Assembly (NCBI GenBank): GCA_024694125.1
Contig: JAILKE010000037.1
Location: 1 to 64,000, forward strand
DNA from: Bacteroidales bacterium
GTDB lineage: Bacteria > Bacteroidota > Bacteroidia > Bacteroidales > UBA3663
Direction of reading: 5' to 3'
DNA length: 64,000 nt
Part shown: positions 9,105 through 10,102 of the stretch, in pieces
Layout of the letters: the number at the start of each line of letters is the position of its first letter
Position numbering within the stretch: position 1 is the first letter of the stretch
Translations under genes and position numbers: made by a program
The notes under the pieces: model-generated
The model's database searches: none
What the model saw: only the letters and a program-made list of their open reading frames with translations
Told to the model about the DNA's origin: nothing

Positions 9105-9162
9105 TTATCAACATAGATATCCACTGAGTTATCCACAATTTTATCCACAATGTTGTTGATAA
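9105..9162. other. Cluster of DnaA boxes (oriC or DnaA-titration candidate)
   Basis: Within 58 bases there are two perfect TTATCCACA boxes (9129-9137 and 9141-9149), a TTATCAACA (9105-9113), its reverse complement TGTTGATAA (9154-9162) and a weaker ATATCCACT (9117-9125). TTATCCACA is the classic DnaA-box consensus. The flanks are AT-rich and the gap holds no gene for more than 400 bases. dnaA itself is not in the window. Confidence 0.5.
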
Positions 9163-9442: not shown

Positions 9443-9474
9443 TTTGTTAGAATGACAAAATCTTTATATCTTTG
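9443..9474 (+). promoter_or_regulatory. Promoter of the small RNA unit upstream of the Abi remnant
   Basis: TTTG (9443-9446), a 20-base spacer, then TATCTTTG (9467-9474). This is a near-perfect Bacteroidota promoter, although no intact protein gene follows it. The expected transcription start is about 9480. Confidence 0.75.
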
Positions 9475-9479
9475 CATCG

Positions 9480-9530
9480 TTAGTTCCCGCCAAGCCTCTC
9501 ATTGACGCTCAAATGCGCGGGGCTTTTTTT
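9480..9530 (+). ncRNA. Short terminated non-coding RNA preceding an Abi_2/AbiF-type gene remnant
   Basis: A predicted transcript of about 50 bases starts just after a strong promoter and ends at an intrinsic terminator. The terminator stem pairs AAGCCTC (9492-9498) with GGGGCTT (9519-9525), including one U-G pair; an inner CATT/AATG pairing caps it, and seven T follow (9524-9530). A competing pairing, CCCGC (9486-9490) with GCGGG (9517-9521), is possible. The unit sits directly in front of the HEPN-type remnant, the place where AbiF-like toxins have been reported to carry a small antitoxin RNA. It has no coding capacity. An antitoxin or guide role is inference; it could also be a plain attenuator leader. 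Confidence 0.55.
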
Positions 9531-9540
9531 GTTTGTAAAT

Positions 9541-9825
9541 ATGGCAAGAAGAAACTCTTGTTGCCATCATTCCAGAGTATGGAACAAGGTAAATTTCATC
9601 CTTCCCATGATGCCTAGACGAATATGTTATCCTTGGATTACATTGCCAGTAGATCCTCAGAGAGCCTATTTTAACATATGCGTTATCAAGTATTTCCTGG
9701 AAGTGATTTCTCCAAACAACGATATGCTTGCTAAACTTCGATGGCTCTTTGTCGATTTTCCAGAAATAGACCTTGCTGCAATGGGCTTCCCTAAAGGATG
9801 GGAAATGGAACCTATCTGGCAATAA
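9541..9825 (+). pseudogene. C-terminal remnant of an Abi_2/AbiF-family HEPN protein
   Basis: The 94 visible residues match only the last third of the Abi_2 (AbiD/AbiF) family, whose members are about 300 residues. The remnant begins with the HEPN motif RNSCCHHSRVWN, an R-x4-H ribonuclease signature equivalent to the family's RNxCAHHSRxWN. It ends with the family's typical tail: RAYFNICVIKYFLEVI, then PEIDLAAMGFPKGWE and a final W. The roughly 200 N-terminal residues are missing, and the break falls between the upstream RNA terminator and the HEPN motif, so it looks like a clean internal deletion that kept the promoter and RNA. The same frame stays open to about 9499, but that part runs through the terminator. 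Abi_2 proteins act in phage abortive infection; this copy is unlikely to be active. Confidence 0.7.
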
Positions 9826-10102
9826 CAATTATCATGAAGACCAACTTGGACAATACATTTTTCAATATTCAAACACTTTAATTATCACGATTCTACCCAG
9901 GATGGAAGGACATCAATTATCCAACTACTTTTGAAATCGTGTGGTCCGATGCTCTGAAATAATTCTTATAATTCTCTAATTCTAGTGATTTATATAATTC
10001 TCGTCAATTCCCGATTATTAGAAATAATTCCTATAATTCTCTAATTCTAGTGATTTATATAATTCTCGTTATTCTCTAATTCTTGAGATGATATAAGAAA
10101 AA
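9826..10102. other. Gene-free AT-rich region downstream of the Abi remnant
   Basis: No protein or RNA gene is supported. Apart from the direct repeats at 9956-10069, only very short open frames occur. Confidence 0.4.
9956..10069. repeat. Two 49-base direct repeats
   Basis: Copy 1 is 9956-10004 and copy 2 is 10021-10069. They begin GAAATAATTC and end ATATAATTCTCGT, and differ at one base (T versus C at the eleventh position). A 16-base spacer separates them, giving a 65-base period. Shorter TAATTCT units occur within and after them. The function is unknown. Confidence 0.8.

Follow-up and report, generated by a model that had tools for sequence, protein, structure and literature searches.

The window, by which we mean the whole 64,000-nt stretch of DNA analysed here, carries a small RNA unit with its own promoter in front of the last part of an abiF gene. 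The features are as follows.

9443..9474, forward strand: Bacteroidota-type promoter, with -33 TTTG at 9443-9446 and -7 TATCTTTG at 9467-9474 (direct reading)
9486..9522, forward strand: abiF RNA (Rfam RF03085), an AbiF antitoxin RNA (cmscan, identity to locus L054)
about 9524..9531, forward strand: U-tract, terminator-like, 3' of the closing stem (direct reading)
9541..9825, forward strand: abiF remnant ORF of 94 codons, comprising the natural start and the C-terminal third (phmmer, comparison with L054)
9549..9556, forward strand: deletion junction, an 8-bp direct repeat AAGAAACT (comparison with L054)
9550..9567, forward strand: HEPN RNase motif R-N-S-C-C-H of the remnant (direct translation)

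The segment from 9486 to 9522 matched RF03085 with 42.5 bits against a gathering score of 37 (cmscan, E 0.0002 over the whole window), and this was the sole Rfam match in the 64 kb. The RNA is 37 nt long, with a closing stem CCCGC/GCGGG, an inner stem AGC/GCU and the conserved bases CUCUC...GA...CAAAU. Its predicted fold (-14.8 kcal/mol, z -0.93) is not distinctive by energy alone; hence, the identity of the RNA rests on homology. It departs from a perfect family consensus but is still identical at 36/37 positions to the RNA of an intact relative, the Prevotellaceae locus L054. The lower Rfam score had raised the idea of a damaged RNA, which was dropped as L054 has the same subtype together with an intact toxin. 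The abiF remnant begins 18 nt downstream of the RNA, the location that is characteristic of RF03085.

This remnant aligns with the 300-aa AbiF chain 8vz6_A over residues 209-300 (phmmer, E 4e-38), and its RNase motif is conserved in that chain. The HEPN RxxxxH signature is present as RNSCCH at 9550-9567, minus the N-terminal two-thirds of the protein. For the full Abi_2 domain (PF07751, COG4823) the remnant scored only 10.4-12.7 bits against a cut-off of 25.6, and the Pfam overlap consisted of the last 12 domain positions, located in the remnant's first dozen residues. The intact counterpart at L054 encodes an AbiF that starts with MTRRNFTK and contains LVRNSCCHHSR. Two copies of AAGAAACT lie 615 bp apart in L054, one in the natural N-terminal codons (M-T/A-R-R-N) and the other at the HEPN motif, in its RNS codons; the window has a single copy, at the junction. 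As this comparison shows, the toxin was lost by a 615-nt in-frame deletion (205 codons) between the 8-bp repeats. A sequence-only reading of this DNA had noted that only the last third of the AbiF gene is left and that it begins exactly at RNSCCHHSR; both points stand, the second because two short AAGAAACT repeats sit there and not because of selection. Lacking two-thirds of AbiF, the remnant should be inactive, and the window lacks the functional toxin that, with the RNA antitoxin, makes up a type III-like toxin-antitoxin module, the toxin being deleted. At the orthologous locus of another genome of the genus (G011), the upstream regulator gene matches at 77% and the sequence beyond it has no similarity to the abiF unit, so that this comparison does not date the insertion.

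A different view of the remnant is that its 94-aa product, being in frame, works as a mini-HEPN protein, either an inhibitor or a subunit, with the RNA as its partner. The deletion did leave the start codon, reading frame and RxxxxH motif in place, and the 94 codons are free of stops. However, in-frame joining is a one in three chance, set here by the 8-bp repeat, and most of the fold is missing. Other remnants break at varied points, keeping from 7% to 62% of the gene, and some are out of frame or contain stops; the remnant at L006, which is close and from the same genus, is joined elsewhere and out of frame. No recurrent mini-AbiF with a single boundary was seen among the remnants, and we regard a working mini-protein as highly improbable.

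The full AbiF of a sister genome in the genus (L007) is nearly identical to 8vz6_A, almost end to end. The solved PbAbiF-AbiFr complex (PDB 8VZ6) is, therefore, a direct reference for the window module. In the account of this complex given in PMC12737573, which cites Zilberzwige-Tal et al. (Cell 2025), the RNase of PbAbiF is blocked by AbiFr, which occupies the protein. The window resembles this system in the alignment of its remnant to residues 209-300 and in the placement of the RNA upstream of the toxin but differs in that the toxin is deleted, leaving the promoter, the RNA and the C-terminal third. A second point of reference is the RCd22-AbiFCd pair of Clostridioides difficile, in which an RF03085 motif with its own promoter and terminator lies upstream of abiF and the toxin is expressed by read-through (PMC12373285). 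Direct binding by RCd22 silences AbiF both in cis and in trans; silencing is lost on mutations that break the RNA structure and regained with compensatory ones (PMC12373285). RCd22 has two RF03085 motifs (33 and 35 nt) and its toxin is intact and lies in a prophage, whereas the window carries a single motif and lacks a functioning toxin. In the intact relatives of the window unit, expression of the toxin is expected to depend on read-through past the U-tract. The window RNA is probably still transcribed and could probably still silence, by binding in trans, an AbiF of the same subtype; in-trans action of the antitoxin RNA has been published for a relative (PMC12373285). The sequence-only reading had proposed a strong promoter, an RNA and a terminator beside an AbiF-type HEPN toxin, with the toxin broken and the RNA unit intact, and this agrees with the Bacteroidota-type promoter, the RF03085 match and the U-tract after the closing stem. 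Its further suggestion of a relic that defines the RNA family does not hold, since the family already has its Rfam entry and its action as an antitoxin has been described (PMC12373285); RNA family, toxin and antitoxin mechanism were all known before.

Our favored explanation, to which we give a probability of about 0.7 as a whole, is that the window unit is what is left of an AbiF-AbiFr module, likely a leftover with a competent RNA, and that toxin-less copies of the RNA in phages likely inhibit host AbiF. Such a module is a type III-like toxin-antitoxin and abortive-infection system; here, its HEPN RNase AbiF lost ~205 N-terminal residues while the promoter, the 37-nt RNA and the U-tract stayed unchanged. 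A leftover is the most likely status of the window copy, since loss of the toxin first would be the only safe order of loss.

To place the window among related loci, genome contigs were scanned with the RNA core and the downstream gene was then checked, giving 98 evaluable Bacteroidota loci. An intact AbiF followed the RNA at 43 of these (including L097, with three tandem RNA copies), a full-length abiF with a broken frame at 2, a truncated abiF with varied breakpoints at 27 and no abiF at 26. Neither of the two outcomes that the sequence-only reading had named as refuting it was seen: the RNA does lie upstream of full-length AbiF (43/98), and its conservation extends far beyond the source genome. 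The RNA is often without its toxin. A frequent lone RNA would be expected if loss of the toxin is tolerated while loss of the RNA beside the toxin is not, and its common occurrence on its own allows the antitoxin role to be told apart from any role in cis. A TAnnTTTG box was present at 46 of the 47 RNA copies preceding full-length AbiF, and a U-tract at all 99 chromosomal copies compared. The -7 box was intact at 98% of toxin-bearing loci; this share fell to 88% where the toxin gene was truncated and to 69% where it was absent. This erosion of the promoter points to the toxin-less chromosomal loci being relics, at which expression may not be selected. Given this trend, and with its own promoter intact, the window copy is best read as a relic that is still competent and probably recent.

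It is also possible that the window RNA is an orphan antitoxin, selected for anti-addiction or self-immunity against AbiF modules on mobile elements. The promoter, RNA and U-tract of the window are all intact, and toxin-less loci are common (53/98 evaluable loci are truncated or without abiF). At loci without abiF, the 3' stem strand, which lay outside the search pattern in the census, was changed at 1/130 sites versus 12/156 for the -7 box (P 0.008), a difference that leaves room for a retained RNA. Furthermore, one 95% complete Bacteroidales genome (G337) has three abiF RNA copies at three loci (L015, L028 and L029), and a C-terminal search of this genome found no full-length AbiF. However, promoter erosion grows with toxin loss, as described above, and the RNA scan finds only copies with an intact core, so that decayed copies are missed. 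A search from the toxin side found the RNA at 3 of about 15 remnants, a number without a clear excess and too small to show preferential retention of the RNA. An upstream flank that is 97-98% identical between toxin-bearing and toxin-less loci shows that some of the toxin losses are recent. Finally, the only full-length AbiF found in the source genome, which is 79% complete, has its own diverged RNA. We consider a selected orphan antitoxin doubtful for the window copy.

This full-length AbiF of the source genome (G000) is an Abi_2 gene of 302 aa (C15, L002). A hairpin about 50 nt upstream has the layout of an abiF RNA with a different sequence (CCCACCACGCTTCTC...GGGTGGGACG; also given as CCCACCACGCTTCTCGTCGC...GGGTGGGACG) and was not detected by RF03085; it appears to represent a diverged RNA subtype needing its own model. 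Two further sequences of the window recur in this genome: an AT-rich repeat (TTCTCTAATTCTAGTGATTTATATAATTCTCG) at 9957-10090, of which the genome has many more copies, and a segment at 9105-9162 with two DnaA-box-like TTATCCACA motifs, of which a 93% identical copy is present at G000:C76:15443-15500. Elsewhere, two or three tandem abiF RNAs precede one intact AbiF at L097 (Ignavibacteriales), L095 and L131, an arrangement comparable to that of RCd22. At L009, L115 and L141, the abiF RNA is followed not by abiF but by genes that resemble ORF6N/KilA-N or DinD/BRO genes by eye, with a second hairpin between the RNA and the following gene at L009. The 37-nt consensus had no match in E. coli genomes and two matches in plasmids.

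The idea of an orphan antitoxin fits phages better than it fits the window copy. Using a looser core of 17 bases (AAGCCTCTCNNNNNNGCTCAAAT), we matched 91 IMG/VR records, and an Abi_2 gene was present in two of these and absent from 89, many of the records being fragments. Abi_2 was likewise absent from all 16 complete named phages with the RNA. Carriers include Mycobacterium phages of the Omegavirus (LittleE, Baka, Optimus and Thibault) and Lclasvirinae (Lolly9) groups, the T4-like Acinetobacter phage Acj61, Aeromonas T7-like phages, Salicola phage CGphi29, Synechococcus phages S-SZBM1 and S-CREM1, Arthrobacter phage Mimi and Roseobacter phage CRP-143. The Rfam cut-off was exceeded in 9 of the 10 phage regions fetched first, the exception being Mimi with 33 bits. 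The loop bases G19 and A20 were invariant in 78/78 unique toxin-less phage copies, and stem pairing, with 35 different 5' strands, held at 4.79 of 6 positions versus 3.40 (sd 0.11) after swapping of partners; neither G19/A20 nor stem pairing was imposed by the search pattern, and a separate comparison of stem pairing gave a similar outcome. Some of the 17-base matches may be due to chance, chiefly a stem-less minority. Covariation of the stem and invariance of G19/A20 are two independent signs that both the structure and the sequence of the phage RNA are kept by selection, and the toxin-less phage copies are clearly maintained.

A tRNA gene lay within 300 nt of 36 of the 101 phage copies, against 12.3 expected for random positions, and all 36 were on the same strand as the tRNA, most of them 4-15 nt away. 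The copy of S-SZBM1 lies between tRNA-Pro and tRNA-Ala, that of Mimi between tRNA-Tyr and tRNA-Lys and that of S-CREM1 between tRNA-Asn and tRNA-Gly, while the copy of Lolly9 directly precedes tRNA-Asn. In T7-like phages, the copy adjoins the scaffold gene, with either the connector or the capsid gene on its other side. Across phages, the RNA occurs in tRNA arrays and late operons and also in a terminase region or among small ORFs, with no fixed partner gene. Both tRNA arrays and late operons would supply abundant RNA, which in the arrays would be released by tRNA processing. The short same-strand spacing to tRNAs in many phages and the T7-like position between connector and scaffold genes could instead indicate a role in phage RNA processing or regulation, for instance as a late-gene leader or as a signal for cleavage within tRNA arrays, with no action against AbiF. 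Such a role is unlikely, as the RNA has no constant neighbor across these diverse settings, the non-phage core occurs mostly in AbiF modules or their remains, and a relative's RNA binds AbiF (PMC12373285).

We think it reasonably likely, from comparative sequence data, that the stand-alone abiF RNAs of many unrelated phage groups (T4-like and T7-like phages, mycobacteriophages, cyanophages, Arthrobacter, Roseobacter and gut or environmental phages) are RNA inhibitors of the AbiF RNase, many made in tRNA arrays and others in strongly transcribed late operons, and would constitute a general counter-defence parallel to RNA anti-CRISPRs (Racrs). As binding of the RNA silences AbiF (PMC12373285, PMC12737573), the same RNA from a phage should turn host AbiF off; it would keep the host enzyme in, or put it into, the off state. 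The phage abiF RNAs resemble the ToxI mimics of phage PhiTE (PMC3475682) and Racrs (PMC10651486) in being a defence RNA found in phages without the effector (89/91 records, some of them fragments, and 16/16 complete phages), and mimicry of a host defence RNA offers an analogy for them. However, the RNA families and the targets (ToxN, Cas proteins) are different, and anti-AbiF action is proposed here by extension. The abiF sRNA of cyanophage S-CREM1, one of the phage copies found here, was noted in a study (PMC9964418) that reported RF03085 for this phage as well as for three phages in Rfam. That study described a copy in a lytic phage, assigned no function to it and made no link to absence of AbiF, stem covariation or counter-defence, and a review calls the role of the phage abiF RNA unconfirmed (PMC12197685). 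The absence of AbiF from RNA-carrying phages, the covariation and the placement in tRNA arrays appear to be unreported in the open-access papers searched.

If the phage copies are inhibitors, AbiF would be a real and widespread anti-phage pressure, and the copies would form a natural panel of RNA inhibitors in which varying stems and an invariant loop mark the important bases. AbiF is a proposed ancestor of Cas13, and its RNA a proposed forerunner of the Cas13 guide. The window itself offers a more modest lesson: a toxin was lost beside its intact antitoxin RNA, an ordinary event that can be clearly reconstructed, and the copy defines nothing new.

Two further phage observations concern related RNAs or AbiF itself. 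Rince in 2000 reportedly described, going by the title, a region of sk1 protecting phage 712 from AbiF; we found no RF03085 match in phage sk1, which speaks against the proposed anti-AbiF role of phage copies. In LittleE (L240 2530-2611), a sub-threshold match to the DUF3800-IV RNA (42.9 bits, cut-off 60.7) lies just upstream of a phage tRNA and is perhaps another stand-alone RNA beside phage tRNAs.
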